Source: Rugosimonospora africana
GTDB taxonomy: Bacteria > Actinomycetota > Actinomycetes > Mycobacteriales > Micromonosporaceae
Assembly (NCBI RefSeq): GCF_016862975.1
Contig: NZ_BONZ01000081.1
Location: forward strand, 1-64,000
Reading direction: 5' to 3'
DNA: 64,000 nt
Shown here: positions 3,861 to 50,938 of the stretch, piece after piece
Numbering within the stretch: position 1 is the stretch's first letter
How the letters are laid out: each line of letters opens with the position of its first letter
The notes under the pieces: generated by a model
The model's database searches: none
What the model saw: the letters and a program-made list of their open reading frames with translations, nothing else
What the model was told of the DNA's origin: nothing
Translations under genes and position numbers: made by a program

Positions 3861-4795
3861 ACACCGCTGTGGCCAGCTGCCTGGCGGCCTGCCTGATTTT
3901 CGCCGCGGCAGGGCCCTACCTTGCCCGTGCTCTGCCGCCTCATCTCGCCGTGCGCCTGCTGGTGCCAAGCGTCGTGCTCGCCACCGGCTGTGGGGTGTTC
4001 GTGCTCGGCGCCGTGGCCTTCACCTGGCTGGGACAGCTCGGCGACGTCGCGGAGTACGGCGCCTGGTCCCCGCACCGGCTGCACCTGCTCGACCCGGTCC
4101 CGACTCAGCTCGCGATCGCCGCCGGGGCGCTGCTGGTACTGGCGGCCGGGTGGGCGGCGGCGAGAACGGTGGGTACCGCTCGCATGTGGTACTCGATGCA
4201 CCGCGCCTGCCGCGACCTGGACGACGGCACCGACTCACCCCTGCTGGTCGTCGACAGCACCGAACCCCGAGCCTTCACGACCCCGGGCCCGTGGCGACCA
4301 CGAATCGTCGTCACCACGGGCATGCTGGCCGCTCTCGACGCACCCGCCCGGCGGATCCTGCTGGCCCACGAGCGCTCGCATTGCGCGCACCGCCACACCT
4401 GCTGGACACTCACCGCCGACCTGGCCGCCGCGGTCAACCCACTGCTGCACCCCACCGCGCGGGCGATCCGGGACGCCACCGAACGATGGGCCGACGAGGA
4501 CGCCGCCCGAGGCAATGACCGTCGCCTCGTCGCCACCACCATCGCCCACGTCGCCCTGCTGGCCACCCGCTCACCGACGCCCACCGGGACAGCCGCGGCC
4601 AGCGGAGGTCGGGTACCCGCACGGGTACGGGCGCTGCGGCGTCCCCCGCCACGCGTCCGGGCCCGCCCGCTCGCCGCCCTGATCGCCCTGACCCTGACCA
4701 TCGCGCTCGGCACGGTCGCCGTCGAACGCACCGGAGAGAGCCTGTTCGAACACGCCGAACGGTCCGCCTCCGCGACGCAAGAGCCTCGACCATGA
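3857..4795 (+). CDS. M56 (BlaR1/MecR1-type) membrane metallopeptidase
   Basis: This is a 312-residue membrane protein with about three N-terminal helices, a cytoplasmic zinc-peptidase region and one C-terminal helix (about 276-295). The zinc motif HERSH lies at 171-175, in LLAHERSHCAHRH. In this family the protease relays a signal to a BlaI partner. The extracellular beta-lactam sensor of classical BlaR1 is absent, so the inducer is unknown. Start and stop both overlap neighbours by 4 bases, placing it in a tight repressor-protease-permease operon. Confidence 0.88.
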   Translation: MNTAVASCLAACLIFAAAGPYLARALPPHLAVRLLVPSVVLATGCGVFVLGAVAFTWLGQLGDVAEYGAWSPHRLHLLDPVPTQLAIAAGALLVLAAGWAAARTVGTARMWYSMHRACRDLDDGTDSPLLVVDSTEPRAFTTPGPWRPRIVVTTGMLAALDAPARRILLAHERSHCAHRHTCWTLTADLAAAVNPLLHPTARAIRDATERWADEDAARGNDRRLVATTIAHVALLATRSPTPTGTAAASGGRVPARVRALRRPPPRVRARPLAALIALTLTIALGTVAVERTGESLFEHAERSASATQEPRP

Positions 4796-33813: not shown

Positions 33814-33883
33814 CCGCCCGTCAGTCCAGCCTCGCCGGTCAACGCGGCCCGCCCGTCGGTCCAGCCCCGCCCGTCAGTCCAGC
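33814..33883. repeat. Three copies of a 17-bp direct repeat
   Basis: CCGCCCGTCAGTCCAGC occurs at 33814-33830, with one mismatch at 33849-33865, and again at 33867-33883. The last copy includes the stop codon of the 33874-34803 gene. The spacing is irregular (35 and 18 bp). Origin unclear; it could be a slipped duplication of the gene end or a terminator-related element. Confidence 0.6.
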
Positions 33884-34803
33884 GGGGCGACGCTGAACAC
33901 GTACTCCTGGCCCTGCCGGAACGGCTCGGCGAACTCGAAGTTCTCGAACGACACCCCGCCCGGGATCGGCGACGTGCTCGCCCAGTAACAGGCTCTGCCG
34001 TTGGCCAGCGCCTCGAGACCGGGCCGAGGATCGTCGCACCGCCAGCCCTGGACGGCCCGGCGCCCGGTGTATTTCCAGTGCGCGCGGGTGCCCTCCGCGT
34101 AGGTCGCGGCCTCCGGCGCGGCTTCGTCCGGCGTCGCCGTGACGACAGCGGCCCCGCCGGCCCGCGCCAGCTCCGGCAGTCCGAACCGGGCATGCGCGGT
34201 GAAGCCGTCGCCGTGGAAGCCGGGCCACAGTTCACCGGATGCCACGACCCGGTCCGCCAGGTGCAGGTGGCGCAGGCGGGCGTAGTTGCCCATGGTCGCG
34301 GTGAGGGTCAGCCGGTCCAGCGGCACCGAGGTTTCCCGGCGGAACGCGGCGAGCGCCACCTCGTACGGCCGGTCGGCCACGAACCGCGCCCGGACGTACA
34401 CGTCGGATCCGTTGGCGAAGCGTTCACATCCGATGTGGACGGTCAGCCGCTGGACACCGTCGATCTCGTCGAGTACGCCTCCGGCAGGGCTGGACGGATC
34501 GCCCGGTGCGCCCGTGGGCGGCCCGTCCAGCGACCAGAACCGCTTGCCCCGCAGGTTGTCCAGCTCGCTCCACTCCAGCTCGGACAGGCCACGCTCGGTC
34601 GCCCCGGACGGTGTCGGCTCGATCGCGACGAAGTTCACCAGCCGGTCGGAGGGGTGTCCGAGATAGGGGGCGAAGACCCTGATCAGGCCACGCGGACCGG
34701 GCAGCGGCGGCAGACCGATCTGCAGACCGCGCGCGTGGCCCCAGCGCGATTCGGCCGGTACCCGGCCTGGCGGCCGTACCCACACCACGTCGGGCGCCGT
34801 CAC
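33874..34803 (-). CDS. Unrecognised protein of the D-arabinan operon
   Basis: This is a 309-residue cytosolic protein with no signal peptide and no family I recognise. It is rich in predicted beta-strands, with conserved-looking stretches [24 protein letters not shown]-like [20 protein letters not shown] and the C-terminal [24 protein letters not shown] 34803 overlaps the isomerase stop by 4 bases (GTGA), so it is translationally coupled to GH116 and the isomerase. That position suggests a role in D-arabinan breakdown or sugar processing, perhaps an unassigned glycosidase, esterase or epimerase. No catalytic motif is identifiable. Confidence 0.7.
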
Positions 34804-36440
34804 CGCACGCTCACGTCGCCGCACAGGTGCACGGCGAGCCCGAGTTCGCGGAAGAACGCGGCCTTCGCCACGAGTGCGTTGTCCGCGCTCGGGGCGTCGG
34901 GGGCGTAGGCGACCTGGACGTGGTTGGCCTTGTGTCGCGCCATCAACTGGTCGCGCCCGACGCCGTGGAGTACCGCGTGCATGATCGGCCACTGCGGCGT
35001 CGTCGCGTCGAGTCGCCGCCGAGTCTCCTCTGGCGGCAGCGCGGCCACGTGTCCGCGGCCGAGGTCGACGTGCAGCGCACCGTCCATGATGAACACCCTC
35101 GACCAGACGATCTCGCCGGCCTTCGACACGCCGCTGAGGGTCCCGCCTCCGAGCGGGAAGTACATCGGGGGTTGCCGCATGCTCCAGCTCTTGTCGTAGC
35201 CGCCGTTGTGCGCGGCCGGTACGGCACCGGAGATCTCAAAGACCCAGACGAACTCGCCGTCGTAGTCGTCGCCCCAGCGGATGTCGTGCAGCGTGGTCTC
35301 CGGATCGAGACCCATGGCGGTCCAGATGCGGTTGGTGACCAGGGCATCGACGGCGACGCCCTCGTCCACCTCGTTGAAGTGGGGCAGCGGCCGGCCGGCG
35401 TACAGTTCCCGGCTGCCGTCACGGGTCGACACCGGCGGCCGGTCCGCGTTGTTCAGCAGGCCCTCGGCCAGGTCGCTGGCCGGAACGGTGTCCTTGAGAC
35501 CCTGCTGGTACTGGATCCCGACCGCGTCCAGGCCGAAGTCGTCGCTGATGCGCAGCGCGGCGATGTACATCTTGAACTGGCTGTGCACCTGGGCTTCGGT
35601 GAGTTCGCTGGCGTCGTCGGAGCCGAAGTGGAAGGTGAAGCCGCGGGCATCGAGCCACTCCCGCACCGCCTGTGCCTCGTCGTCGCCGACCCGGTTCATC
35701 TCGGCCACGAGCGCGCTCTGCGACAGCCGCTCCTTGAAAATGCCGAGCGGGTTGAGTAGTTCGTCGTCGACGATGGCGTTGTACATCCCCATGCAGCCCT
35801 CGTCGAAGACGCCGATGACGGCCTTGTCATCGCGCAGCTGTTGGGCCAGCGCCACGCCGAGCTCGACCTCGGGGCGGGTGGCTTCCAGGACCGGCAGGTC
35901 GCGCACGTGGGACAGGTCGTGGGTCAGCGAGCCCTCGGCGAGCCAGGTACGCAGACCCTCGCGTGCCCACGCGTCGGTGAAGTCGGCGCTCCACAGTGTG
36001 GAGTGCGCGACGCCGGCCTTGGTCAGGCTAGCGCTGAGGTTGAGCAGACCCACCAGCCCGGGGAACTCGCCGGACCAGTTGGCGACGATCAGGATCGGAC
36101 CGCGATGGGTACGCAGCCCGGCCAGGACGTGGTGGCTGTACTGCCAGACCGCGTCGACCACGATCAGCGGCGCGTCGACCGGGATCGTCTTGAAGACCTC
36201 GATGCCGTAGCGCTGGCTGTCGATGAAGCCGTGGCCCTTGACCGGATCGAAGTCGTGCGCCCGCTGCACCGAGAAGCCCAGGTCCTTCAGCGCGGCCGCG
36301 AGGTGGGTCTCCAGCTGCTGCTGCACCGGCCAGCAGGTCACGTTGGCGCTGGGCCGCAGGTCGCCGCTGGCGACGGTGTAGGCGGTCGCCTCACGCAACG
36401 CGGGTCGCCGGGTCGGGGTGGGCATGGTGTACGAGGTCAT
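34800..36440 (-). CDS. L-fucose/D-arabinose isomerase family protein
   Basis: This is a 546-residue FucI-type isomerase (COG2407). FucI enzymes convert L-fucose to L-fuculose and D-arabinose to D-ribulose using Mn2+. The metal region DEGCMGM (213-219), the [10 protein letters not shown] segment (308-317), the [16 protein letters not shown] block (356-371) and a C-terminal [11 protein letters not shown] are present. ATG 36440 overlaps the GH116 stop by 4 bases (ATGA). Next to GH116, GH172 and GH183 genes, D-arabinose is the likely substrate. No ribulokinase is seen in the window, so the next step must be encoded elsewhere. Confidence 0.82.
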
Positions 36441-38926
36441 CGATGGTCCTCCCGGAGGGGTCGACTGTTCGGTGCGAAGCGGTAGACGGTGTCGGGCAGC
36501 AGGCGAAGCGGGCCGGCGACCAGCCGGCCCCACCGCGGGTGGTGCACGCGCACCTCGCCGACGTCCAGCGCGCCGCCGAGCAACTCCAGCTCGGCGCCGG
36601 CGGGTGTCACGCGCAGCTCGCCCCACCCGGTGCCGGTGGTGAACGGCAACCTCACGTCGTCACCGCCCAGCCGTGGCCGGAACTCCAGGGTGCCGGCGGG
36701 CGCGTCGTAGTCGGCGCCGGTCAGCGCGACGACCAGCCCCCAGCTGGCCAGCGACCGCGCGTAGTGGTTGCCGCATTCGGCTTCGTTCCAGGGGTTGCGG
36801 CGGTACCCGTCGTGCCGGTCCCGGACCGCGCCGACGATCCGCAGGGCCTCGTCGACGCGGCCTTCGATGACCAGGTGCGTGGCGACCTGGTACTCGATGC
36901 CGGTCCACACCTCGTCGCAGTAGACGAACGGGATCCGCGGGCGGCCACCCCGCGGCCAGGAGCACAGCACCAGGCCGGCCTCGCCGGCCAGCGCGTAGGT
37001 GCGCTGAACGCTGTGGTGGCCGGAGAGGTCGGGCCGGAAGTTGTGCCGGTACACGGCCGTGACGGCGCTGCGCACATGCTCGGCGGGCAGCACGTACCCG
37101 ACTCCGCTCAGGTGGGCCAGTAGCTGCCCGAAGACCTGGTCGCTCAGGCAGCCGGTCCCGTACTGGTAGCGCCGCTCGTCGACGTCGTCGACGCGCTGCT
37201 CGTAGTACTCGCCGTTGAACAGCAGGGCGTCCATCCGCCGCGCGCCGCGTGCCGCGGCGTCCCGGTACCGTGTCGCGGTCTCGTCGTCGCCCAGCCGCGC
37301 CGCCATCGAGGCGGCGGCCAGCAGCGCGGCGAAGAACATCGAGTTCGCCAGCGAGTTGGGTCCGTGGAACTCGATGTCGTACGTGTTGTGCTGCTGGCTG
37401 TCCAGCACACCGTCGCCGTCGCTGTCCCAGACCGTGAAGGCGTAGTCGACGGCCCGCTTCACCCCCGGCCAGCACTCGACCAGAAGCGCGTCGTCACCGC
37501 TGAACCGCCACTCCCGGTGCAGCCGGACCACCGCGCCGAGCTGGCCGTCGACGGCCGGGTGGAAGTCCCAGGGGGCGTTGCCGAACACACTGTTGGCGCG
37601 GAAGTTCATCCGCCCGTCGGGCCGGGTCTCGTGCACGAACTCGGTGCGCCGGGCGTCGCGCTCCAGCTCCGGGAAGAGGAAGGCCGCGGCTTGCGCGTAG
37701 TTCCAGACATGCGTACACGTGCCTTCGCAGCTGCCGCTGTGGTCGAAGCTGCCCTCCCACGCGGCGAACCTGCCACCCTCCAGACGCAGGCAGGTGGTGC
37801 TGCGCAACACCACGAGGTTCGCGGTGGCCGCGTCGATGACCTGCCGCGGCAACGAACTTCCGAACAGCGCCGCGTGGAACGTCCGGGTCGACCGCTCCAG
37901 GTCGGCGAGGTTCGCGGTCAGGTGCTTCGCCACCGCCCAGGCGTCGGCGAAGCGGGTGGCGTAGTGGTTGCGCACGACCCGGTCGGCGTTGGTGTTGTCC
38001 AGGTTGATATTGCCCTGCCAGGCCCGGGGCCGGTTCGGGAAATGCCAGGTGAGGACGAATTCGAAGGCGCTGCTGCGGCCCGGTTCGAGACGGTGGACGA
38101 TGCCGAGTGAGCCGACGCGCAGCCGGGTGAACCAGTCCGGGTACGGTGGGGAGTCCAGGCTGAACTCCGTCTCCACCTCGAGCCGGCCGTCTGCCCGCAG
38201 GTCATCCCAGAAGACCTGCACCCCGTCCTGCCAGAACCCGGCCAGCCAGGTGGGTTTCGCCGTGGTCGCCGGGTCGGTCGTGGCCAGCGCGGCACTGCCG
38301 AACCGGAGGTCGTCGGGCGGCAGGTCGGTGCCGAACCCGATGCCGCGCAGGCCGGGCTCGTCGCGCCAGGCGTTGGTCGGCTGGCCGGAGTAGGTCGGGA
38401 ATCCGAAGACGTCGCGGCCGGTGATCCCGACCGGATTGGCGAGCGATCCGACGATCGTGACGTCGGTCGCCGTGGCGCCGGGGTTGGTGACCCGGTATCG
38501 CAGTACCGCACCGGGGATGCCGGAGGCGTCCGCGTCCAGGGGTACGAACGGGGTGAACGCCGTGAGACTCACCTCGACACCCAGCTGCGCGTCGTCGAAG
38601 TCGACGCACAGCAGCGGATATTCGCCCCGCATGCGGCTGCCGTCCAGCCGTGGCAGGCCGGCCAACCGTCCCGCGTCGTACCCCTGATCGCCCTCGTGCG
38701 GGCCGGGCAGCCGCGACTCCAGCACCTTCGTCACCGGCTCGGCGCCCTCGCGTGCGGTGCGGATCGCGAAGAACGTGAACGGCAGCCGCGCGCCCTTGTC
38801 CGGCCGGTTCGCCAGTTCCCAGTCACGCAGGTCGCCGCGCGCACCGACGGAGACGTTCCCGGTGCCGATGCCGCCGAGCGGGAACGCGGCCACGGTGGCG
38901 TCCGGACCGAGCAGGCGGGTGCTCAC
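36437..38926 (-). CDS. GH116 glycoside hydrolase, probable exo-beta-D-arabinofuranosidase
   Basis: This is an 829-residue GH116-type enzyme without a signal peptide. The N-terminal beta-sandwich runs to about 330 ([19 protein letters not shown] is typical). The catalytic (alpha/alpha)6 barrel contains [12 protein letters not shown] (401-412) and [13 protein letters not shown] (513-525). Asp517 is the likely acid/base, and Glu391 or Glu401 the nucleophile. GH116 includes glucosylceramidases, beta-glucosidases and the exo-beta-D-arabinofuranosidase of a Microbacterium D-arabinan system. The latter is favoured by the neighbours. GTG 38926 is used. A LacI-type operator lies 84 bases upstream. Confidence 0.85.
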
Positions 38927-39009
38927 CGCACGCCGCCCGGTGCGCCTTTGCTGAAGGTACCGATGTCGACACCGATCACGGCGTGGCTCAGCATGGCCAC
39001 ACCATTCCA

Positions 39010-39021
39010 GAAATCGATTTC
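39010..39021. promoter_or_regulatory. LacI-type operator, GH116 operon
   Basis: GAAATCGATTTC is a perfect 12-bp palindrome 84 bases upstream of the GH116 GTG. It matches the three other sites in the locus (consensus G[AT]AA[TC]CGATT[AT]C). It lies in the 212-bp gap between the lacI-type gene and GH116, so it probably overlaps or borders the GH116 promoter. Confidence 0.85.
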
Positions 39022-39138
39022 ACCGTCAACAGCCGACGACGGCGCCGGCTATCGCGGACAGCACCCCGTCAGCCGCCGACGACGGCGCCCCGTCAAGAGC
39101 CGACAACGCCGCCGACGACGCGGCCGCCACGCGCCCGG

Positions 39139-40101
39139 TCAGCTGGCGTGGTTGCGCAGCACCACCGTGCGGGGAGGCTGGTCGTCGCCGTTGATGCGGT
39201 CGAGCAGCAGCTTCGCCGCCGTGACGCCCAGATGCCGTGCGGGCAAGGGAATGACGGTGATCGCCATCGGTGCCATCACCGCGAACGGCAGGTCGCCGAA
39301 GACCGCCATGCCGACCGCGGGCGGCATGGCACCGCGCTGTGAGAGAACCTGCAGTGCGCCGACGCCCATGAGGTTGTTCGCCACGAACACCGCGTCGGGT
39401 GGCTCCGGCATGTCGAGCAACTCGCGCATGGCCTTGTGCCCGCCGTCCACCCGGAAGTCGGCGAACCTCAGGTAGCGTTCGTCGACCGCTCCGGCGGCCC
39501 GGACCGCGTCCCGCCAGCCGTCCGCGCGCTCGGTCGCCGTCTCCACGTCGCCCGGGCCGGTGACGCAGCCGATCCGGGTGAATCCCTGATCCAGCAACGC
39601 CCTGGTGGCCTCCCGTCCGCCCGCGCGGTTGTCCACCGTCACGGCGTCGATGTCGAAGCCGTGTGGGCTGCGATCCACCGCCACCACCGGCCGGTTGCGG
39701 GCGATCAGACCGCTCACGTCGCTGTTGTCCCCGGCCGCGGCCAGGATGACGCCGGCCATGTCCGCCCCGACCGCGATGTCGAGGTACCGGGCCTCCTTGC
39801 CGTGGTCCTCGTCCGAATTGCACAGCACCACCGAGTATCCGGCGGCCTGCGCGACATCCTCGACACCGCGCGCCATCGACGTGAAGAACGGATTCTCGAT
39901 GTCCGGGATGACCAGTGCGATCACCTGGGAACTGCGCATCCGCAGGGTGCGAGCCACCCGGCTGGGGGTGAACGAGAGGGCCTTGGCCGCCTTGCGGACC
40001 CGTCTGGCCTTGTCCGCGGAGACGTTCTGGCCGTTGAACACTCGCGAAACCGTGGCGGGCGAGACGCCGGCCATCGACGCGACCTCGTAGATCGTTGCCA
40101 T
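39139..40101 (-). CDS. LacI family transcriptional repressor
   Basis: This is a 320-residue LacI-type repressor. The HTH and hinge are intact (ATIYEVASMAGVSPATVSRVFNG then ALSFTPSRVARTLR), and the periplasmic-binding-like sugar domain occupies 60-320. ATG 40101 has GAGGAAG upstream. It sits at the centre of the sugar locus, divergent from GH172. Four palindromes of the form G[AT]AA[TC]CGATT[AT]C in the locus are its expected targets. The inducer is likely a D-arabinan-derived sugar. Confidence 0.93.
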   Translation of the reverse strand: MATIYEVASMAGVSPATVSRVFNGQNVSADKARRVRKAAKALSFTPSRVARTLRMRSSQVIALVIPDIENPFFTSMARGVEDVAQAAGYSVVLCNSDEDHGKEARYLDIAVGADMAGVILAAAGDNSDVSGLIARNRPVVAVDRSPHGFDIDAVTVDNRAGGREATRALLDQGFTRIGCVTGPGDVETATERADGWRDAVRAAGAVDERYLRFADFRVDGGHKAMRELLDMPEPPDAVFVANNLMGVGALQVLSQRGAMPPAVGMAVFGDLPFAVMAPMAITVIPLPARHLGVTAAKLLLDRINGDDQPPRTVVLRNHAS

Positions 40102-40171
40102 CGCTTCCTCAGGGGCTTGATTGCCGGCACCGCGGGCGATTGACACGACCGCGCAGTCACTCTACCTTAAT

Positions 40172-40183
40172 GAAATCGATTAC
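40172..40183. promoter_or_regulatory. LacI-type operator, GH172-GH183 operon and lacI
   Basis: GAAATCGATTAC lies 70 bases before the lacI-type start and 81 bases before GH172, between the divergent genes. It is within the longer TGAAATCGATTACA. The repressor probably controls both itself and the glycosidase operon here. Confidence 0.85.
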
Positions 40184-40264
40184 ACAGGATCCGGCCCCGC
40201 GGGCGCGGCTCCCGCGACCTGGAAGCTCCACGTCCGCCCCCCGACGACGCTGGTGGAGACCTCA

Positions 40265-41386
40265 ATGGTGTATCCCGAGCCCGGTTCGATCGCTCGACTG
40301 CGATCGGTGCAGACCCGGTCGATCAGCCCGGAGAACTTCGACGGATCGGCGGGCGGCGGCGGGCGTGCCACCGTGGGAACGGGCGCGGCCTGTGCCCGGG
40401 ATCTGGGGCCGGGCTGGAAGATCTCCCCGAGCGTGGACATCCCGGCCAGTGCCACCTTCGACCTGGCGACGATTTCCGGCGCGGGCCAGATCACTCATTT
40501 CTGGGTCACCACGCACAAGGACAACTGGCGCACGCTGCTGCTGCGGGCCTACTGGGACGGCGCCGAGGAACCCGCCATCGAGGTGCCCTACGGCGACTTC
40601 TTCTGCTCGGGGTGGGGCGAATTCGCACAGGTCAACTCGCAGACCATCGCGGCGAACCCGCACGGCGGGTTCAACTCCTACTGGCCGATGCCGTTCCGCG
40701 AGGGTGCCCGTCTCACGCTGGAGAATCTGTCCACTGTCGACGTTCGCGTCTACTACCAGATCACGTACGAGATCGGAGGCGACTACTCCGGCCTCGGGTA
40801 CCTGCACGCGCAGTGGCGGCGCAGCAATCCGCTGGAGTACCTGACGCCGCACACGATCGTCGAGGGGGTCGAGGGCACCGGCCAGTACGTCGGGACCTAC
40901 CTGGCCTGGGGCGTCAACAGCAGCGGCTGGTGGGGCGAGGGAGAAATCAAGTTCTACCTGGACGACGACGAGCAGTACCCGACCATCTGCGGCACCGGCA
41001 CTGAGGACTACTTCGGCGGGGCATGGAACTTCGACGTGCCCGGCCGCGGCTACACCGAGTTCTCCACGCCGTACCTCGGCATGCCGCAGGTGATCCGGCC
41101 GGACGGCCTGTACGCGAGCCAGCAGCGCTTCGGCATGTACCGCTGGCACCTGGTCGACCCGATCCACTTCGCGCAGCGGCTGCGCGTGGACATCCAGGCG
41201 CTCGGCTGGCGATCCGGCTGGCGCTACCTGCCGCTGCGCGACGACATCGCCTCCACGGCCCTGTTCTACCTCGACCGGCCCACCGCACGCCGGCCCCGGA
41301 CGCCCAGCGCGGACGACCTGGAGGTGCACCTAGGTAGCGCCCCGGTCCCCGACCTGGGAGCACAGCCACCGCGCCCGCCAGCCTGA
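40265..41386 (+). CDS. GH172 (DUF2961) exo-alpha-D-arabinofuranosidase or alpha-D-fructofuranosidase
   Basis: This is a 373-residue DUF2961 protein, now family GH172. The family acts on alpha-D-arabinofuranosides and alpha-D-fructofuranosides. Marks are GWGEFAQVNSQTI, NSYWPMPFREGARL, and the active-site region WWGEGEIKFYLDDDEQ then GTGTEDYFGGAWNF, with Glu225/227 and Glu247 as catalytic candidates. ATG 40265 has GGTGGAG upstream. No signal peptide, so it acts in the cytoplasm on imported oligosaccharides. GH183 follows 52 bases later in the same operon. Confidence 0.88.
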   Translation: MVYPEPGSIARLRSVQTRSISPENFDGSAGGGGRATVGTGAACARDLGPGWKISPSVDIPASATFDLATISGAGQITHFWVTTHKDNWRTLLLRAYWDGAEEPAIEVPYGDFFCSGWGEFAQVNSQTIAANPHGGFNSYWPMPFREGARLTLENLSTVDVRVYYQITYEIGGDYSGLGYLHAQWRRSNPLEYLTPHTIVEGVEGTGQYVGTYLAWGVNSSGWWGEGEIKFYLDDDEQYPTICGTGTEDYFGGAWNFDVPGRGYTEFSTPYLGMPQVIRPDGLYASQQRFGMYRWHLVDPIHFAQRLRVDIQALGWRSGWRYLPLRDDIASTALFYLDRPTARRPRTPSADDLEVHLGSAPVPDLGAQPPRPPA

Positions 41387-41438
41387 GACGGGCGGGCACG
41401 GCGAGAGCACAATGCCCGGTACAGGGAGGAGTAGCGCA

Positions 41439-42986
41439 GTGCAGAGACCCGTCCCCCGCGCCGCCGCCGGCGCCCTCATCGCCGCCGCCGTCATCGGTGG
41501 CACGACCCTCGTCGCCGCACAGCCGGCGGCGGCCACCAGCGCGCACACGAATGCCACGCTGATCGAGAAGCTCACCGGCCCGGACTCGCCCAACAACACC
41601 TACGGGCGGTGGAACGTCAAGGCCACCGACCTCGGCATCATGTGGGACGACAACGCCGGGCACGTGCTGACCGCGTTCGGGGACACCTTCGGCGACGCCT
41701 GGGTCGGCCCGGGCGGCGGTGTGCTGGGCTCCGGTGACGCCAACTGGCGCAGCAACGTCCTGCTGCGTTCCGCGGACACCAATCTCGCCGACGGCATGGA
41801 CTTCGCCAGCGCGGTCACCGGATCCGACGGGCGTGCCCGGGAGATCCTGCCGGGGCTGCACCAGCCCGACGGCACCGGTGAGGTGACGAAGATCCCCACT
41901 GCCGGCATCGCGGTCGGCAACCGGCAGTACGTGTCGTTCATGTCGGTGCGCCACTGGGGCGCGCCGGGTTTCTGGGACACCAACTACGCCCAGATCGCGT
42001 ACTCCGACGACGACGGCACCACGTGGTCCACGGCCGGTACCCCGGTCTGGAACAACCCCTCGCTGTCCGACCACTTCCAGCAGCAGTCGTTCGCCCGCAA
42101 CGGCGGATACGTCTACGTGTACGGCACGCCGAGCGGGCGCAACGGCAGCCTGTACGTCGCGCGGGTGCCCGAGGCGCAGCTGCTCACCCAGTCGGCGTAC
42201 CAGTACTGGAACGGCAGCACCTGGGTCACCAACAACGAGTCGGCGGCCACCGCCGTGGTCGGCGCGCCGGTCTCCGAACTCTCGGTGCGCTACGACAGTT
42301 ACAGCGGCCACTGGCTGATGATGTACCTGCAGGGCGAGGACATCATCCTGCGTACCGCCACCGGTCCGCAGGGGCCGTGGGGCGCGGCGCAGACCGTCGT
42401 CAGTTCGGCCGACTATCCGGGCCTGTACGGCGGTTTCATGCACCCCTGGAGCTCGGGCGGAACCATCTACTTCACGATGTCGCAGTGGGATCCGTACAAC
42501 GTGTACCTGATGAAGGTGCAGATCAACGCGTCCGGAACCATCGTCAACCCGAACCTCATGGGTGACCCGAGCTTCGAGCGCGGCGCGCTCAACACCTCGG
42601 GTACCGGCGGGTTCTGGGCGTGCGGGGGCAACTGCGGCATCGACGACTCCCACTGGGGTTACTCCGGTGACCGCAACGGCTTCGCCCGCTACAACCAGGG
42701 TTGGCAGGACGTCCACCAGACGGTTCCGGTCGCCGCCAACACCAGCTACCAACTGACCGGGTTCATCCGCACCTCGGCCAACAGCGACAACGGGTTCATG
42801 GGTGCGCGCACCACCGGTGGGGCCGTCATCAGCGAGGCGCACTACACGGCGATCGGCCCGTGGACCCGGGTCGTGGTGAACTTCGCCAGCGGCTCGAACA
42901 CGTCGGTGGTGGTGTACGCCGGAGTGTGGACCGACCACGGCGACATCTGGCTGCAACTGGACGACTTCTCGGTCGTCCGGACCTGA
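41439..42986 (+). CDS. GH183 (DUF4185) secreted endo-D-arabinanase
   Basis: This is a 515-residue secreted enzyme. Residues 1-33 form a signal peptide (basic start, hydrophobic core, PAAATS). The DUF4185/GH183 domain follows (about 38-370), with ATDLGIMWDD and FGDTFGDAW. Asp64 and Asp82 are the candidate catalytic pair. Family GH183 contains endo-D-arabinanases that cut mycobacterial arabinan. Residues 372-515 form a jelly-roll, probably carbohydrate-binding (NPNLMGDPSFERGAL to LQLDDFSVVR). GTG 41439 is preferred over ATG 41412 because AGGGAGGAG precedes it by 7 bases. Confidence 0.88.
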   Translation: MQRPVPRAAAGALIAAAVIGGTTLVAAQPAAATSAHTNATLIEKLTGPDSPNNTYGRWNVKATDLGIMWDDNAGHVLTAFGDTFGDAWVGPGGGVLGSGDANWRSNVLLRSADTNLADGMDFASAVTGSDGRAREILPGLHQPDGTGEVTKIPTAGIAVGNRQYVSFMSVRHWGAPGFWDTNYAQIAYSDDDGTTWSTAGTPVWNNPSLSDHFQQQSFARNGGYVYVYGTPSGRNGSLYVARVPEAQLLTQSAYQYWNGSTWVTNNESAATAVVGAPVSELSVRYDSYSGHWLMMYLQGEDIILRTATGPQGPWGAAQTVVSSADYPGLYGGFMHPWSSGGTIYFTMSQWDPYNVYLMKVQINASGTIVNPNLMGDPSFERGALNTSGTGGFWACGGNCGIDDSHWGYSGDRNGFARYNQGWQDVHQTVPVAANTSYQLTGFIRTSANSDNGFMGARTTGGAVISEAHYTAIGPWTRVVVNFASGSNTSVVVYAGVWTDHGDIWLQLDDFSVVRT

Positions 42987-43022
42987 CCGCGGCACCGCGC
43001 GACGAGCCGGACCGAACGCAGG

Positions 43023-43052
43023 GCGGCGGCACCCCAACCGGGGTTCCGCCGC
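43023..43052. terminator. Bidirectional terminator hairpin
   Basis: The arms are GCGGCGG-C-ACCCC and GGGGT-T-CCGCCGC with loop AACC (43023-43052), so 12 pairs with one mismatch. It sits between the convergent GH183 and dehydrogenase genes. Confidence 0.7.
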
Positions 43053-43068
43053 TCACGCCGTCACGTTC

Positions 43069-44511
43069 TCAGGACGCCGCCAACGCCGACAGCGTCGCCC
43101 GTGCGCCGTCCCGGATCAGCGAATCCAACGCCCACCGGTAGTCGGCCACGAACCGCTGGCTGTCGGCGAGGTCGCCGAACAGTTCGCGCTGCCGCAGGAA
43201 CGCCAGCGGAGACTCGCGTTGCCGGGCCGCGACGGCCATCACACCGTCGCGGCGCCGATCGACCACCTCGATCGGCGCGCCCCGCTCGTCCACCCCCTCG
43301 GCGTAGCGCGCCCAGCTCGCCACGATCGCGGCCGATCGCCGCACCGGCCCGCCGCGCTCCAGCTGAGCCCGGACGACCGGCAGCAGCCAGGTGGGGATGC
43401 GGTCCGACGAGTCGGCGCACAGGCGGGCGATGGTGTCCCGCACATGCGGGTTGGCGAAGCGTTCGATCAGCGTCTTCTGGTACTCGACCAGGTCGATCCC
43501 CACCACGGGCGACAGCGTCGGCATCGCTTCCTCGTGCATGTACCGCGTCAACAGGTCCACGATCAGCGGGTCCTGCGCCGCCTCGTGCGCGTACCGGTAG
43601 CCGAGCAGGTGCCCGAAGTAGCACAGGCCCTGGTGCGAGGAGTTGAGCAGCCGCAGCTTCATCAGTTCGTACGGGCGCACGTCGGCGACGAGTTGCACCC
43701 CGGCGCGCTCGTACGGCGGCCGCCCGGACGGGAACTCGTCCTCGATGACCCACTGCAGGAATGGTTCGGCCACCACCGGCCAGGCATCGGTGACCCCGAA
43801 CGTGGACTCGACGTGGGCGCGGTCCTCCGCGGTGATGGCTGGCGTGATCCGGTCCACCATCGAGTTCGGGAACGCCACCGAGGCCGCCAGCCAGGCGCCC
43901 AGCTCGGGCGACAGGCGGGCGGCGAACGCCGCCATCATCCGGCGCGCCACCTCGCCGTTGCCGGGGATGTTGTCGCAGGACATCACGGTGAACGGCGCGA
44001 TGCCGCGCTCCCGCCGTCGGACCAGTCCAGCGACGATGAGTCCGAACGCGCTGCGCGGGACCGCACCCGGTGCCAGGTCGTGCGCGACCGCCGGATCGCT
44101 GGCGTCGAACTCGCCGCTGGTCGGATTGAGGCAGTACCCGCCTTCGGTGACCGTGAGCGAAACGATGCGTACCGCCGGGTCGGCCAGTTGCTCGATCACC
44201 CCGTCCGGGTCGTCCGGCGCGTACCGGTAGTCGATGATCGAACCGATCTCGCGTGCCTCCTGCGTACCGTCCGGATGCTTGAGTACCAGCGTGTACCGGC
44301 AGTCCCGGGAGCGCAGGGCGTCGCGCATGGCCACGTCGCCGGGCAGCACGCCGACCCCGCACACCGCCCAGTCGTGAGCGAGGCCGGCGTTCATCAGGTC
44401 ATCCAGGATGGCCGCCTGGTGCGCGCGGTGGAATCCGCCGACGCCGAAGTGCACGATGCCCACCCGCAACGCGGCCCGGTCGTACCGCGGGTGCTCGACG
44501 GGGGCGGTCAC
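43069..44511 (-). CDS. Mannitol dehydrogenase family polyol dehydrogenase
   Basis: This is a 480-residue NAD(P)-dependent long-chain polyol dehydrogenase. The N-terminal motif FGVGGFHRAHQ (22-32), TVTEGGYCLNPTSGEF, FTVMSCDNIPGNG and the catalytic-region LLNSSHQGLCYFGHLLGY (Lys in ELMKLRLLN) are all family hallmarks. Members act on mannitol, D-arabinitol or fructuronate. In this locus D-arabinitol or a pentulose is plausible. GTG 44511 overlaps the permease stop (GTGA). It is the last gene of the importer operon. Confidence 0.88.
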   Translation of the reverse strand: MTAPVEHPRYDRAALRVGIVHFGVGGFHRAHQAAILDDLMNAGLAHDWAVCGVGVLPGDVAMRDALRSRDCRYTLVLKHPDGTQEAREIGSIIDYRYAPDDPDGVIEQLADPAVRIVSLTVTEGGYCLNPTSGEFDASDPAVAHDLAPGAVPRSAFGLIVAGLVRRRERGIAPFTVMSCDNIPGNGEVARRMMAAFAARLSPELGAWLAASVAFPNSMVDRITPAITAEDRAHVESTFGVTDAWPVVAEPFLQWVIEDEFPSGRPPYERAGVQLVADVRPYELMKLRLLNSSHQGLCYFGHLLGYRYAHEAAQDPLIVDLLTRYMHEEAMPTLSPVVGIDLVEYQKTLIERFANPHVRDTIARLCADSSDRIPTWLLPVVRAQLERGGPVRRSAAIVASWARYAEGVDERGAPIEVVDRRRDGVMAVAARQRESPLAFLRQRELFGDLADSQRFVADYRWALDSLIRDGARATLSALAAS

Positions 44512-45329
44512 TTGATGCCCGAGATGCGCACGCCGTTGACGATGAACCGCTGGAAGACCAGCAGTAGCACGATCGTCGGGATGGACGCCAGCGTGGAGCC
44601 GGCCATCAGCATGCCCCAGTCGTTGCCGCGATCCGATCGGAAGTTGCCGAGGAACTGCATGATCTGGGTCAGGCTCGGATCGGTGATCGTCAGGATCGGC
44701 CAGACGTAGGCGTTCCAGTACGCCAGATATGACGCGAGGCCGACCACCACGAACGGCGCCGCGGACTGCGGCAGGAACACCCGGAGGAAGATCTGCCACC
44801 GGCTGGCGCCGTCGATCAGCGCGGCCTCCTCGACCGCCACCGGATAGCCCAGATAGTACTGGCGCAGGAAGAACATCTGCGCCGCGGACGCGACCCCCGG
44901 GATGATCAGCACCGCCATGGTGTTCAGCATGCCCAGCTTGGACACCACGACGAAGGACGTCAGCAGGATGGCCATCATCGGGATGAACATCGGCATGACG
45001 CAGTAGACCCACCAGAAGCGTTTGCCGCGGAAGTCCAGGCGGGCGAACGCGTACGCGGCCATGGAATTGACCGCCAGGCTGAGCACGGTGAAGATGAGCG
45101 CGCCGATGAAGGTCACCGCCATCGCCCGCATGAACTGGTGGTCGCGCAGGATCGCCGAGTAGTTGTTCCACCGCCACATCTCCGGAAAGAACTGGAACGG
45201 AGTCCGGAGCACCTCGCTCCTGCCCTTGAACCCGGCAATCGCCATCCACGCCAGTGGGAACAGGACGCTGGCCGCGATGAGCACGACGAGCACAGCGGAT
45301 CCGGTCTTGCGAAACACGCGTACGGACAC
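44508..45329 (-). CDS. ABC sugar transporter permease (MalG/carbohydrate type)
   Basis: This is a 273-residue inner-membrane permease with six helices. The cytoplasmic EAA loop reads EEAALIDGASRWQIFLRVFLP. The long first helix and the terminal VNGVRISGIK are typical of carbohydrate permeases. It pairs with the permease encoded just upstream (45348-46322) and the binding protein. No ATPase is encoded here; such importers often share an MsiK-type ATPase encoded elsewhere. GTG/ATG 45329 is used. Confidence 0.93.
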   Translation of the reverse strand: MSVRVFRKTGSAVLVVLIAASVLFPLAWMAIAGFKGRSEVLRTPFQFFPEMWRWNNYSAILRDHQFMRAMAVTFIGALIFTVLSLAVNSMAAYAFARLDFRGKRFWWVYCVMPMFIPMMAILLTSFVVVSKLGMLNTMAVLIIPGVASAAQMFFLRQYYLGYPVAVEEAALIDGASRWQIFLRVFLPQSAAPFVVVGLASYLAYWNAYVWPILTITDPSLTQIMQFLGNFRSDRGNDWGMLMAGSTLASIPTIVLLLVFQRFIVNGVRISGIK

Positions 45330-45347
45330 GGAAGTAGCCCCTCTCGA

Positions 45348-46322
45348 TCAGCCGTCGACGGCCTTGTCGGACTTGATCAGCCGGAAGATCACGATCGAGA
45401 TCGTGCCCAGGACCGCGAACAGCAGCAGCGACGCGGTCAGCGAGTAGCTCGTCGCGTACGGCGTGAGGTCCCGGAAGCTGTTGAAGATGTAGTAGTTCGG
45501 CGTGCTGGTCGCGCCGACCGGGCCACCGTTGGTCATGATCAGTGGCAGGTCCAGCATCTGGACGGCCAGCGTGAACCCGGTGACGACCAGGTACAGCAGC
45601 ACGTTCTTCAACAGCGGGATGGTGATGTACCACAGGCGCTGGAAGAACCCGGCGCCGTCGAGCTTCGCCGACTCGTAGTAGCTTTCCGGGATGTCCAGCA
45701 GCGCGGCCAGCAGGATCAGGGTGGTGATGCCGAAGCCGAGCCAGATGCCGGGAACGGCGATCGCCGGCAGCGCCCACCGCGGACTGTTCAGCCACGCGAC
45801 AGGGGCGTGGTTGACCAGGCTGAGGAACCAGTTGACCACCCCCTCGTCCTGGTACATGAAGGTGAACAGCACCGACGCGATCACGGTGGACACGACCGCG
45901 GGCAGGTAGATGGTGACCTTCATGAACGCCGCGACGCGACCGCTGAGCGTCTTGATGAAGCTCGCCAGCAGCAGCGCGATGACGATCCCGGTCGGCACGA
46001 CCAGCAAGGCGTAGTACAGGCCGATCCAGATCGAGTGCCAGAAGTCCGAACTCTCCAGCACGTACTGGTAGAACTGCGCGCCGACGAACTGCGGCGCCTT
46101 GTAGAAGCTGATTTTGAAGGTACTCAGGTACACCGAGTAGACCAGCGGCCACATGACGAAGATGCCGAGCAGGATGACCATCGGCGCGATCATCAGGTAC
46201 GCGGTGACGTTGTCCTGCCTGCGCGGGGCGCTCGCCCGACGACCGGAGCGGGTACGCCGACCCGGCTCGGTACCCGCACCCGCCGGCGGCTGTCCTTCGT
46301 GAGCTGATTCGAGCAGAGCCAC
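45348..46322 (-). CDS. ABC sugar transporter permease (MalF/UgpA type)
   Basis: This is a 324-residue permease with a basic N-terminal tail, then six helices. The EAA loop is YYESAKLDGAGFFQRLWYITIP. GTG 46322 is preferred over TTG 46337 because GGGAGG lies at good distance upstream. It forms the heterodimeric channel with the 44508-45329 product and follows the binding-protein gene in the same operon. Confidence 0.9.
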   Translation of the reverse strand: MALLESAHEGQPPAGAGTEPGRRTRSGRRASAPRRQDNVTAYLMIAPMVILLGIFVMWPLVYSVYLSTFKISFYKAPQFVGAQFYQYVLESSDFWHSIWIGLYYALLVVPTGIVIALLLASFIKTLSGRVAAFMKVTIYLPAVVSTVIASVLFTFMYQDEGVVNWFLSLVNHAPVAWLNSPRWALPAIAVPGIWLGFGITTLILLAALLDIPESYYESAKLDGAGFFQRLWYITIPLLKNVLLYLVVTGFTLAVQMLDLPLIMTNGGPVGATSTPNYYIFNSFRDLTPYATSYSLTASLLLFAVLGTISIVIFRLIKSDKAVDG

Positions 46323-46394
46323 AGTGTCGCCTCCCAACCGGTGGCGCCCGGGAACGCGGTCACCGCATTCCCGGGCGCCGGGGCGTGTGTCGAG

Positions 46395-47732
46395 CTAGTG
46401 CGTCGGTTCGGTCCCGGCCAGGGACTGCTTCTTGATGACATCGTTGATCTGCCCGTCGGCCTTCTTCAGCGCGTCCGGGATGCTCAGGTTGCCCTTCATC
46501 GCGCCTTCGATCGCCGTACCGAAGTCCAGCGCGATGTCCCACGGGTAACTCGGCTCCTGCTTGCCGTACGGCACCACCTTGTCCGAGATGACCTTCATGA
46601 ACGGATCCGAGTTCGCGTCCGTGTTGCCGGACAGCGCCTGGTCGACCGACGTCCGCACGGTGTACTTGGAGAACCCGCTGGCCTTGAAGAAGCTGGCCAT
46701 GATGGCCGGGTCACCGGCGAGCAGCCACTGGATGAACCCCGCGGCCTGCGTCTTCGCCTTGGACTTGGCGTCCACGGTCAGCGTCCAGCCGCCCAGAGTC
46801 GCCGTGGTCTTCGTCGGGTCGCCGTCCATGGACGGGAAGGGAGCCACCGCGGTCTTCGCGACCATCGCCGGGAACGTCTCCTTGAGCTGGCCGACGGCCC
46901 ACGAGCCGTCCGCCATCATGGCCACCTGGCCCTGGCCGTACGGGCTCGCGTCGGCGTAGCCCACCTTGGGCGTCTTGGGCATCAGGCCGCCCTGGTAGAG
47001 CGTCTTGTAGAACTGCAGGAGCTTCTGGAAGCACGGGTCGGTGGCCGTCGACTTGGACCAGTCGTCGGCGACCGGCAGGTGCCCGCACGCGTTGTACTGC
47101 AAGCCCCAGCTGGCCCAGCCCAGGTCGGCCGCGACCGAGGCGATCGTCATGCCCTTGACATTGCCCTTGGTGAGCTTGGTCGCCCACTGGATCAGCTCGT
47201 CCCAGGTCTTCGGCGGACTCTTCGGGTCCAGGCCGGCCGCCGCCACCAGGTCCGTGCGGTAGTACAGCACCGTCGACGGCTCGACCAGCATCGGGTACGC
47301 GTAGTGCTTGCCGCCGATGGTGACGAAGCTCTTGACGTTGTCCTTGATGTCGGCGAAGGCGCTGGCCGGCAGCAGTCCGTCCAGCTCGGTCAGCTCACCG
47401 TTGGCCGCGGCGGCGGCGATGTTGCCGTAGTTGGTGGTCTGCACGTCGGGAGCCTTGTTGGCGGCCTGTGCCGCCTTCAACTTCTGCGCCCAGGTGTCGG
47501 ACGGCACGACCTGGTAGTCGACCTTCACCTTGCTCTGCGAGGCGTTGAAGGCGTCGACCTCCTTCTTGAACCACGCCTGCTGGTAGTCCTCGAACTTCTG
47601 CTGCCAGAAGGTGATGACCGTCTTCCCGCCCTCGGTCTTGGCACCGCCGCCGCTGCCACACCCGGAGAGTGCGAGTGAAGCCGCGACCACCGCCGACGCT
47701 ACGAGAGCCCATGTGCTACGCCTCTTGTGCAC
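46395..47732 (-). CDS. Extracellular sugar-binding lipoprotein of ABC importer
   Basis: This is a 445-residue solute-binding lipoprotein. The signal peptide ends in lipobox LSGC (Cys25), followed by a Gly-rich tether. The rest is a two-lobed carbohydrate-binding fold of the MalE/UgpB class (VITFWQQKFEDYQQAW, PDVQTTNYGNIAAAA, YAYPMLVEPSTVLYYRTDL, QVAMMADGSWAVGQL). GTG 47732 has GGAGGAG upstream. It leads the importer operon and has two LacI-type operators about 367 and 433 bases upstream. Confidence 0.93.
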   Translation of the reverse strand: MHKRRSTWALVASAVVAASLALSGCGSGGGAKTEGGKTVITFWQQKFEDYQQAWFKKEVDAFNASQSKVKVDYQVVPSDTWAQKLKAAQAANKAPDVQTTNYGNIAAAAANGELTELDGLLPASAFADIKDNVKSFVTIGGKHYAYPMLVEPSTVLYYRTDLVAAAGLDPKSPPKTWDELIQWATKLTKGNVKGMTIASVAADLGWASWGLQYNACGHLPVADDWSKSTATDPCFQKLLQFYKTLYQGGLMPKTPKVGYADASPYGQGQVAMMADGSWAVGQLKETFPAMVAKTAVAPFPSMDGDPTKTTATLGGWTLTVDAKSKAKTQAAGFIQWLLAGDPAIMASFFKASGFSKYTVRTSVDQALSGNTDANSDPFMKVISDKVVPYGKQEPSYPWDIALDFGTAIEGAMKGNLSIPDALKKADGQINDVIKKQSLAGTEPTH

Positions 47733-48098
47733 CTTCTCCTCCTTCAGCGGCTCGTCGCCGAACCGTGTCCACATCCTGCACAGGGGATTGCCAGCTGAAC
47801 GAAGCGCGGATCGCGTCGCTACCCGGGTCGCGGGCCGCAGTCGGTGGCCTGCCCCCACCCTCCGGACACCGGCGAAGCCGGCGTTGGACGAGCACCCGTC
47901 GCGGGGATCCCGGACGGTGGGCGCGGGCCGGCAGCCTCCACAGTGGAGCCCGATGCCCGCCCGGCGATCGCGTCCGCGCCCAGACCCGGTGCCAGCACCG
48001 CACTCCGCACCCGGCAGTCGCGGGGCAATGTCGTGCGGGTTTCCGGCATGTGTCCACCGCTTCCGGTCGGGAACGACTGGCTGGTAGTGAACACCGTG

Positions 48099-48110
48099 TA
48101 ATCGATTTCG
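48099..48110. promoter_or_regulatory. LacI-type operator, importer operon (proximal)
   Basis: GTAATCGATTTC matches the locus consensus. It is 367 bases upstream of the sugar-binding protein start. It is within TGTAATCGATTTCG. Confidence 0.8.
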
Positions 48111-48164
48111 TCAAGAGCCTCGTCGATGACTGCCCGGCGGTCGTGCTCTTGCTGCGAGCAGCCT

Positions 48165-48176
48165 TAGAAACCGATT
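48165..48176. promoter_or_regulatory. LacI-type operator, importer operon (distal)
   Basis: GAAACCGATTAC matches the consensus with a C at the fifth base. Its centre is 66 bp from the other site, about six helical turns, so two repressor dimers could bind on one face or loop. Confidence 0.7.
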
Positions 48177-48458
48177 ACAGCCGGGGCCTCAGCGGGCGCT
48201 CTCAACACGGGACGGTCCGGTCATGAGACGATCCATCCGCGACAGCCCGCAGTGCCGGCGGAACTCCGGCGCACCCTTGGGACTGCGGCGTGCCGGCGGG
48301 ACTGCGGCGTGGCGGCTACGCCGTCGAGGCCGAACGCATCGGGCTCGACGCGATCCCGCCGCCGCGCGAGCGCGGGAGCGCCGCGGCGTCGCGCGCACAC
48401 GGCCACGCCGTTGGAACGGGCGGGTGGTGCGGCACCCGCGGACTGTGCCGGGACCGCC

Positions 48459-50819
48459 CTACCTGTGCTCACCGGCGAGGTCGGCCGGGGGCTTGCCGTA
48501 GTCGCACACGCCGGTCGGGAAGATCTGTTCGAGTCGGGTCCGCTCCGCCGCGTCGGGGTGCCAGGAACCGTAGCTGTGCTGGGCGATCGCCTTCGCGACC
48601 GGTTCCAGCTGGCACTGGAAGCTGTCCTCGTCGAAGGGGCCGCCCGCGATGACCCGGGAGGTGGAGTGGATCGGGAACCGCTGCGTGCAGGCGCCGGCCG
48701 GCCGGTTGTCGAGGATCCCGTCCCAGACGTGCGGACCGGCGGCGATCTGCGTACCGTCGGTGGCCAGGCACCGGTCGGTCGCCAGGGCCGGCTTGTTGCC
48801 GGCCACGCCGCGGGCCGGATGCTGGCGGATGTTCGTCAGCCACTGGTCCATCACGCCGAGGGCCTGGCCGATCGCGTCGGTCTGCGGCCCGTTCGGGCGC
48901 GCGTCGGTAAACCAGATGACCTGGTTGTCGGCGTTGCCGTGGGCCTCGATGATGCGCTGCCGGCTCACGAAGGACTGCCGGCTGTTGTGCATGTTGAGGG
49001 CGTCCTCCAAGTAGTGCCGCCAGTCGATGACCGGGATGTCGATCCGGCCGCGGAACACCAACCCGTTGTCGTAGGCGGCGCGGATCGCGCCGAGGTCGCC
49101 CCCGGTCCGGGGCGCCGGGATGGCGCCGCCGTCCGGACTCAGCGTCATGTTCCGCGAACTCCACGGGTCCCAACTGCCGCCCGGAACGAAGGGCGCCCCC
49201 TCGGGCACCATGTCCTCGGAACTCTTCCAGCCGCCGACGGTCGCGTTCAGCTTGAGGAACTCGTCGGGTGAGATCTTGTGCCCGACCAGCGCCTGCAGGC
49301 CGTACTGCACGCCGACGTTGTCGAACGTGGTCCGCGCGTAGCCGTCCGGCTTGACGCCGTAGATGTTGCGCAGGTCGTCGTAGGTCGTCCACTTCACGGT
49401 GGCCATCACGCCCGCGGGCTCCATGAGGTTCTGGTTCGACCCCGCCGAACCGTACGTCGGGTCCAGCAGCAGCGGCGTGAGGCCCCGCCACCCGTTGACG
49501 CACTCGTCGGAGCCGTTCGTGCCGGTGTACGGGTTTGCCACCGTGTCGCTGGCGTTCAAGCCCTCGAGCAACGAGCGGTTGGACCAGTCCTTCCACATCG
49601 GGTTGCCGGCGTCGGTGACGTCCATGAAGTACTCGAGCAGCTCGCAGTCGCCCACGTGGATGGCCTGCGTCACCTCGTCGGGGTAGGAGTACACGGGAAT
49701 CGCGGCGTCGATCAGGCCCGGGAAGTCCTGACCGAAGACGTACTGCTCGATCCCGCCGCCGGACGCGCCGACACCCACGGTGTACAGCGGCACGCCGTGC
49801 TGCTCGATGAAGTGCTCCTTCACCATCAGCGCCGTCTCGCCGGCGAGCTGGAGGTTGTAGTGCACCCCGGTGACGTTGCCGGTCGAGTAGGCCACCGCAT
49901 AGCCGGCGGCGAGGCCCTGCGTCGCCTCGAACATGGAGTCCGGCGTGCCGCCGAGGGTGCCCTGCTGGTGCCCGATGCCCACGCCGCCGGAGCTGAAGCT
50001 GTAGAGCAGCCGGCGGTTCCAGGCCGAGTCGTCCGGGTGCGCCGGGTCGTCGCCGAGCGGCGCGAGCATGGCGATGCTGTAGATGAACCGGTTGATCGTG
50101 CCGCGTTCCCACCGGACGATGAAGTCCCGGGTGCTACCGTCCAGCGTCCTCGTGGTGGCGAGGTCGGCCGGACGGCTGCCGTCGGCCGGCAGCGGCTTCC
50201 ACTGGTTGGCCGTGCTGCGGTAGAGATAGTCGACCCGGGTGGTGGCCGCGCAGTCGCTGCTCCAACCGACGATCTGGCTGGTCTTGTTGCCGTTGTCGTC
50301 CAGCGCGAAGACCGGCAGGCCCACGTGGTCGTGGTTGTCGACCAGCGGCTGGCCCAGTCCCGACTGCTCGGTGTCGCACACGAACGGCTGCTGCTGCGGT
50401 CCGGAGAAGATCGGCCCGCTGGTCGGGAAGTCGGTCAGCGTGAGCCTCACCGACCGGCGGCCCCGGACGTGGCCTCTCGCGGTGGCGACCAGAGTGTTCG
50501 CGCCGAGCCTGAGGCCGTCGACGAGTCCGACGAACGAGCCGGCGGTGTCGGGGTGGAGGTCGGCGGTGACGTCGGAACCGTTGCGCAGCACGGTCACGTC
50601 GGAGCGCGACACGGCGCCCGGCACCGTGACCCTGATGAGCGCGTTGCCGCCGGTGACCTGGTCGGGCCGGCTGGACAGCACCCGGATGTCCACGCTCCGA
50701 CCGGTACCGGCCGCGGGGGCGGCGGCCGCCGGCGGTACCAGGCCGGCTATCACCACGACGGTGGCGGGAAGGATGACGGCCGCACGCCGGCGCGGGTGCC
50801 GGCCGATGGTGGCGAGCAT
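48459..50819 (-). CDS. Secreted DUF6351 family protein
   Basis: This is a 786-residue secreted protein. The signal peptide (about 1-35) ends in PPAAAAPAAG. An immunoglobulin-like region follows (about 40-130), then a large DUF6351 domain. GVGASGGGIEQYVFG contains a G-x-S-G-G nucleophile-like elbow, suggesting a serine hydrolase fold. ATG 50819 has GGAGGT upstream. DUF6351 occurs in other actinomycetes but has no characterised function that I recall. It is not clearly part of the LacI regulon: no operator is near its start. Confidence 0.82.
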   Translation of the reverse strand: MLATIGRHPRRRAAVILPATVVVIAGLVPPAAAAPAAGTGRSVDIRVLSSRPDQVTGGNALIRVTVPGAVSRSDVTVLRNGSDVTADLHPDTAGSFVGLVDGLRLGANTLVATARGHVRGRRSVRLTLTDFPTSGPIFSGPQQQPFVCDTEQSGLGQPLVDNHDHVGLPVFALDDNGNKTSQIVGWSSDCAATTRVDYLYRSTANQWKPLPADGSRPADLATTRTLDGSTRDFIVRWERGTINRFIYSIAMLAPLGDDPAHPDDSAWNRRLLYSFSSGGVGIGHQQGTLGGTPDSMFEATQGLAAGYAVAYSTGNVTGVHYNLQLAGETALMVKEHFIEQHGVPLYTVGVGASGGGIEQYVFGQDFPGLIDAAIPVYSYPDEVTQAIHVGDCELLEYFMDVTDAGNPMWKDWSNRSLLEGLNASDTVANPYTGTNGSDECVNGWRGLTPLLLDPTYGSAGSNQNLMEPAGVMATVKWTTYDDLRNIYGVKPDGYARTTFDNVGVQYGLQALVGHKISPDEFLKLNATVGGWKSSEDMVPEGAPFVPGGSWDPWSSRNMTLSPDGGAIPAPRTGGDLGAIRAAYDNGLVFRGRIDIPVIDWRHYLEDALNMHNSRQSFVSRQRIIEAHGNADNQVIWFTDARPNGPQTDAIGQALGVMDQWLTNIRQHPARGVAGNKPALATDRCLATDGTQIAAGPHVWDGILDNRPAGACTQRFPIHSTSRVIAGGPFDEDSFQCQLEPVAKAIAQHSYGSWHPDAAERTRLEQIFPTGVCDYGKPPADLAGEHR

Positions 50820-50901
50820 CGGGCGTGACCTCCGTGGTTCGCGGTCGGGACGAACTCTGCGAGTGAGGGCTGCGTGCCTGGAACCTGCCGGTGACGCGAC
50901 G

Positions 50902-50938
50902 ATCATACTCGGGATTCGACCTCCTCCCTAGGGAGGAG
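50902..50938. promoter_or_regulatory. Perfect 18-bp palindrome near a -10 of the DUF6351 gene
   Basis: CTCCTCCCTAGGGAGGAG (50921-50938) is a perfect palindrome. On the minus strand a good -10, TATGAT (50907-50902), lies 13 bases beyond it, so the palindrome covers the -35 region of the DUF6351 promoter. The form CTCC..CTAG..GGAG is reminiscent of MerR-type operators, but no MerR gene is near. Confidence 0.5.

Follow-up and report, generated by a model that had tools for sequence, protein, structure and literature searches.

D-arabinan is a sugar polymer of mycobacterial cell walls. The enzyme activities of a D-arabinan locus have been established in Microbacterium arabinogalactanolyticum, the only species for which induction by, or growth on, D-arabinan or D-arabinose is known (PMC10509167). 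By qRT-PCR, its GH116 gene and four GH183 genes rise more than 10-fold with D-arabinose and with mycobacterial extract, the binding-protein gene is significantly induced and GH172 increases 3.5- and 6-fold (PMC10509167). The main text of that paper mentions no LacI, regulator or operator. For the LacI family, an even palindrome with a central CG is the norm (PMC4052901), and the main text of that study does not mention arabinose. Looping between lac operators has been measured in vivo over distances of 57.5-155.5 bp (PMC1762422). Neither the regulator nor the motif that we report here turned up in a search of the open literature.

We analysed a stretch of 64,000 nucleotides from Rugosimonospora africana (the window, meaning the whole of this stretch), in which four copies of a 12-bp motif are very probably the operators of the adjacent LacI, a repressor of D-arabinan breakdown that would be relieved by D-arabinose or a derivative of it. 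This lacI-family gene (39139-40101, minus strand) encodes a protein of 320 aa with Pfam LacI and Peripla_BP matches, whose orthologues are 53-86% identical; PF00356 and PF00532/PF13377 score over the cut-off, corresponding to an N-terminal HTH and a periplasmic-binding-protein-like effector domain. Divergently from it runs a GH172 gene (40265-41386, plus strand; start codon candidates ATG at 40265 or GTG at 40253), its product being 84% identical to the crystallised exo-alpha-D-arabinofuranosidase ExoMA1, followed by GH183 (DUF4185), a secreted endo-D-arabinanase homologue (41412-42986, plus strand). On the other side, all on the minus strand, lie a GH116 homologue of the exo-beta-D-arabinofuranosidase ExoMA2 (36437-38926; PMC10509167 for ExoMA2), an L-fucose isomerase-like sugar isomerase (34800-36440) that overlaps the GH116 stop, and a conserved gene without a family (33874-34803) whose start overlaps the isomerase stop, being the third in the GH116-isomerase operon. 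The isomerase, which has a weak Fucose_iso match under the cut-off, is likely a D-arabinose isomerase. No match was found for 33874-34803 in a Pfam search, and it possibly represents a new family of D-arabinan or D-arabinose enzymes. The importer operon, also on the minus strand, comprises a solute-binding lipoprotein (46395-47732), permease 1 (45348-46337), permease 2 (44508-45329) and, closing it, a mannitol dehydrogenase-family oxidoreductase (43069-44490). With GH172, GH183, GH116, importer and isomerase together, the window holds a D-arabinan utilisation locus. A DUF6351 tannase-like protein of obscure function (48459-50906, minus strand) adjoins the importer promoter.

An exact scan of the window with GWAAYCGATTWC returned four sites and no further one, all of them upstream of genes and none within genes, as the preliminary description had claimed; its sequences were correct and its positions 39010 and 40172 stand, the other two being shifted by one and two bases (from 48099 to 48098 and from 48165 to 48167). 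The first site, the perfect palindrome GAAATCGATTTC (39010-39021, minus strand), serves the GH116-isomerase operon. It lies in the 17-bp spacer of a putative promoter (39001-39029, minus strand) between TTGACG (39024-39029) and a weak AATGGT (39001-39006), and this geometry is kept in orthologues, for example as TTGATC-at-GAAATCGATTTC-gtc-TACAGT. The second, the imperfect palindrome GAAATCGATTAC (40172-40183, plus strand), is common to the divergent lacI and GH172-GH183 units. It follows by 3 bp the predicted GH172 promoter (40140-40168, plus strand; TTGACA at 40140-40145, 17 bp, TACCTT at 40163-40168) and would cover the likely transcription start, at about +1; the TTGACA-17-TACNNT layout is kept across orthologues. 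The main importer operator, GTAATCGATTTC or GAAATCGATTAC in the importer sense (48098-48109, minus strand), lies in the -35/-10 spacer of a third putative promoter (48086-48114, minus strand; TTGACG at 48109-48114, 17 bp, TTCACT at 48086-48091), and the TTGAC-operator-CACT layout is seen again in other genomes. An auxiliary operator, GAAACCGATTAC or GTAATCGGTTTC in the importer sense (48167-48178, minus strand), lies 69 bp upstream of the main one. The -10 boxes are too weak for a generic sigma-70 scan, which at its threshold called none of these promoters; we placed them from sequence and conservation. An Rfam search of 38500-48500 found RNA elements absent.

Under a first-order Markov model of the window, counting distinct sites, 0.004 sites are expected per 64 kb against the four observed, and 0.74 in the 11.1-Mb genome against six exact matches; a reversed control pattern had no match in the genome scan. 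The two additional sites (C46:4472 and C46:4759, on another contig) are the only ones beyond the window, and all six fall at two GH116/GH172 loci. We also examined three genomic sites with one mismatch as candidate members of the regulon and rejected them, none being at sugar genes: the first is inside a carbamoyltransferase-like gene, the other two upstream of a drug-type ABC gene and of a purQ-like gene.

The motif is conserved together with its regulator and forms an even palindrome with a central CG, as is characteristic of LacI-family operators. A protein scan with the window LacI returned 69 loci at 53-86% identity, all except one labelled actinobacterial, and in most of them a perfect GAAATCGATTTC lies 40-300 bp after lacI, preceding the next operon (kinase/GH116/isomerase or importer). 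The GH116-side operator is perfect and in the same position in 27 of the 34 GH172-type loci. The site in the divergent lacI/GH172 intergenic region, in contrast, is imperfect in every one of the 34 loci that have it, mostly as GGAATCGATTTC or GCAATCGATTTC (GTAATCGATTTC in the window, in the lacI sense). Between divergent lacI and GH116 in the sister clade, 16 of 17 regions carry a perfect palindrome (p=2e-12 for the difference, on related sequences, which overstates the number of independent events). At the lacI/GH172 sites the same position is broken by several different bases. Co-occurrence points in the same direction. Among 151 genomes of the family of the window, the perfect palindrome is present in all 14 that encode a close LacI (at least 57% identity) and in 29 of the 137 others (Fisher p=4e-9, relatedness making this value optimistic). 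In 367 Microbacterium-type genomes (the genus of G317), split by the presence of an ExoMA1-like GH172, it occurs in 70 of 71 positive and 58 of 296 negative genomes (p=3e-38, again optimistic through relatedness); at least two sites are found in 70/71 and 17/296 respectively, the positives usually having three. The sole GH172-positive genome without the palindrome is 76% complete, and the reversed control pattern had no matches in these scans. Since those 58 genomes lack GH172 and yet have one site or more, the D-arabinan system is not the only setting of the palindrome, and other LacIs may use it too. Together, the genome scan and the conservation across genomes strongly support the earlier proposal that one LacI regulon joins GH116-isomerase, lacI/GH172-GH183 and the importer.

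A link to the induced system comes from genome G554, which we take to be that of M. arabinogalactanolyticum because one of its proteins matches the ExoMA1 chain of PDB 8IC8 at 100% identity. The whole genome has four copies of GNAAYCGATTTC, clustered within 14 kb in the D-arabinan locus. One precedes kinase-GH116-isomerase, one is the imperfect site in the lacI/GH172 intergenic region, and the remaining two stand ahead of the binding-protein gene and of a GH183 gene. The homologue of 33874-34803 begins 19 bp from an operator (G554:C7:1126868). Of the strongly induced GH183 genes, two follow GH172 in the same orientation and no further operator intervenes, so operator presence or quality alone does not fully explain the strengths of induction. 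The idea that operator strength sets induction, suggested by the imperfect site of GH172 and its 3.5-6-fold response, was dropped, since this operator-less downstream pair rises more than 10-fold.

The importer is preceded by two operators, and this arrangement is seen repeatedly. In 25 of 26 TTGAC-operator promoters a second operator lies 67-70 bp upstream, at exactly 69 bp in 17 of them; further pairs were found at 69 bp in a class-A genome (L116) and at 68 bp in Micromonospora avicenniae. The DNA between the paired operators is 21-33% identical between the window and the others, which is the background level, and the operators themselves are 87-96% alike; a random stretch would yield such a site over those four positions with a probability of 0.0008. 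From these alignments the spacing looks constrained, and we read the importer sites as one conserved paired-operator element, which by hypothesis would fit cooperative binding or a short loop. The alignment of the 320-aa LacI stops at residue 309 of the 360 of E. coli LacI and a C-terminal tetramerisation tail was not found, so the lac tetramer tail seems absent from it; with the tail seemingly missing, looping is put forward as a hypothesis. More specifically, and tentatively, a tail-less, dimer-type LacI might repress the importer via a short loop between two operators whose 67-70-bp separation selection would have kept in several actinobacterial families, though the intervening DNA changed completely. 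Between this promoter and the binding-protein gene, the window carries a scar (48020-48085, minus strand) left by a lost GH183 gene, of which the 5' end persists. It shares 79-81% DNA identity with the GH183 start of L116 and with the leader of L026; GH183 is intact in relatives such as L116, and the importer leader of the window begins with its 5' end. This loss explains the importer leader of about 345 nt. A tblastn search of the leader for a GH183 protein remnant gave nothing convincing, but the DNA of the 5' end does match.

Regarding the effector, the nearest solved LacI-family sequence is a ribose operon repressor. We compared the window LacI by alignment with what we take to be the ten ribose contacts of the E. 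coli ribose-binding protein. It retains eight of the ten, as do nearly all relatives, and differs at D215, which is G in 91 of 92 relatives, and at Q235, which is changed throughout the family. These two changes suggest a pentose other than ribose, and a pentose such as D-arabinose is the obvious candidate for the effector, in line with the D-arabinose induction of M. arabinogalactanolyticum.

The two sites outside the window lie on contig C46 at 4472 and 4759, 287 bp apart, with a near-match adjoining at 4771, between divergent genes for secreted GH116-fibronectin and secreted GH172-fibronectin proteins. Tandem operators, GAAATCGATTAC-AAAATCGATTAC, are seen there at 4759-4782 (locus L007:861-8136, G000:C46). 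The GH172 promoter there is laid out as in the window, with TTGACG, 18 bp, TACGCT, 4 bp, operator. Behind GH172 follow a ribose-type ABC importer, a GH43/GH32-like protein and a second regulator, LacI2, which is 41% identical to the window LacI. The genome has only two DUF2961/GH172 genes, that of the window and that of C46, and both carry the operator. The preliminary description had spoken of a local regulon; with two more sites at a second GH116/GH172 locus the regulon is not purely local and probably not confined to the window. The same locus provides the strongest competing explanation, namely that the operators are real but shared with, or mainly bound by, LacI2, the two paralogues cross-regulating two D-arabinan loci. 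We regard it as possible though rather unlikely. C46 has the same operators and a LacI of its own, members of the wider clade that includes LacI2 adjoin the palindrome in other genomes, and related LacIs (48-52%) elsewhere also adjoin GAAATCGATTTC; however, two sites flank the gene of the window LacI, such flanking sites recur round its orthologues in dozens of loci, and no operator lies near the gene of LacI2 itself. Two tandem LacI paralogues are present in L043, L058, L062, L065-L068, L070, L071, L073-L078, L081, L083, L089 and L091, where the second paralogue precedes the isomerase and is without a nearby operator of its own.

If the adjacent LacI is indeed the regulator, when substrate is absent a dimer would occupy the GH172-GH183 promoter at about +1, and with it the upstream region of lacI, and another would lie between the -35 and -10 boxes of GH116-isomerase. 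LacI would also be bound on the importer promoter spacer and on the auxiliary operator 69 bp upstream, and RNA polymerase would be blocked at each promoter. D-arabinose or a D-arabinan-derived sugar would then enter the ribose-type pocket, LacI would release, and enzymes, importer and isomerase would be produced together. That LacI might instead activate some promoters, using the upstream importer site as an activator position, is very improbable: this site, which precedes the likely start by about 91 bp, is usable by an activator, but at each promoter an operator overlaps +1 or the stretch between the -35 and -10 boxes, positions at which a bound protein obstructs polymerase. That the motif is a palindrome arising by chance or of unrelated function, such as a restriction-type ATCGAT or the site of a global regulator, has a negligible probability, for although the ATCGAT core is palindromic on its own, the genome scan refutes the strong form of this reading, sites far exceed expectation in window and genome, and the motif is conserved and co-occurs with the system in hundreds of genomes. 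The statement that the four sites define a regulon without any experiment was nevertheless too strong, as LacI binding, repression over activation, the effector and the cooperation of the importer pair are what we infer.

The analysis names a likely regulator and operator for the enzymes breaking down arabinogalactan and lipoarabinomannan of mycobacteria. The 12-bp site, being largely tied to this system, may help to find D-arabinan-degrading genes in actinobacterial genomes, 33874-34803 being one example, and it also offers a candidate D-arabinose-responsive promoter. The locus resembles that of M. arabinogalactanolyticum in having GH172, GH183, GH116, isomerase and ABC importer with the same operator, and differs from it in having no FGGY kinase, an extra dehydrogenase and the loss of GH183 before the importer. 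In Hamadaea (L025, 4227-5768) and others an FGGY kinase lies between lacI and GH116, the counterpart region in the window being 38926-39139; no FGGY pentulokinase was found in the window locus, and the nearest kinases of the genome, 33-36% identical, are located elsewhere. As in the E. coli lac operon, a LacI-family repressor is accompanied by two operators at one promoter with a spacing within the lac looping range, but unlike E. coli LacI the window protein seems to be without the tetramer-forming tail. The regulon is new and its kind, a local LacI sugar regulon, is already known: it shares with the regulons of PMC4052901 an even palindrome with a central CG, a local catabolic regulon and a site before the regulator gene, and differs from them in the conserved 69-bp operator pair and the consistently imperfect lacI/GH172 site.
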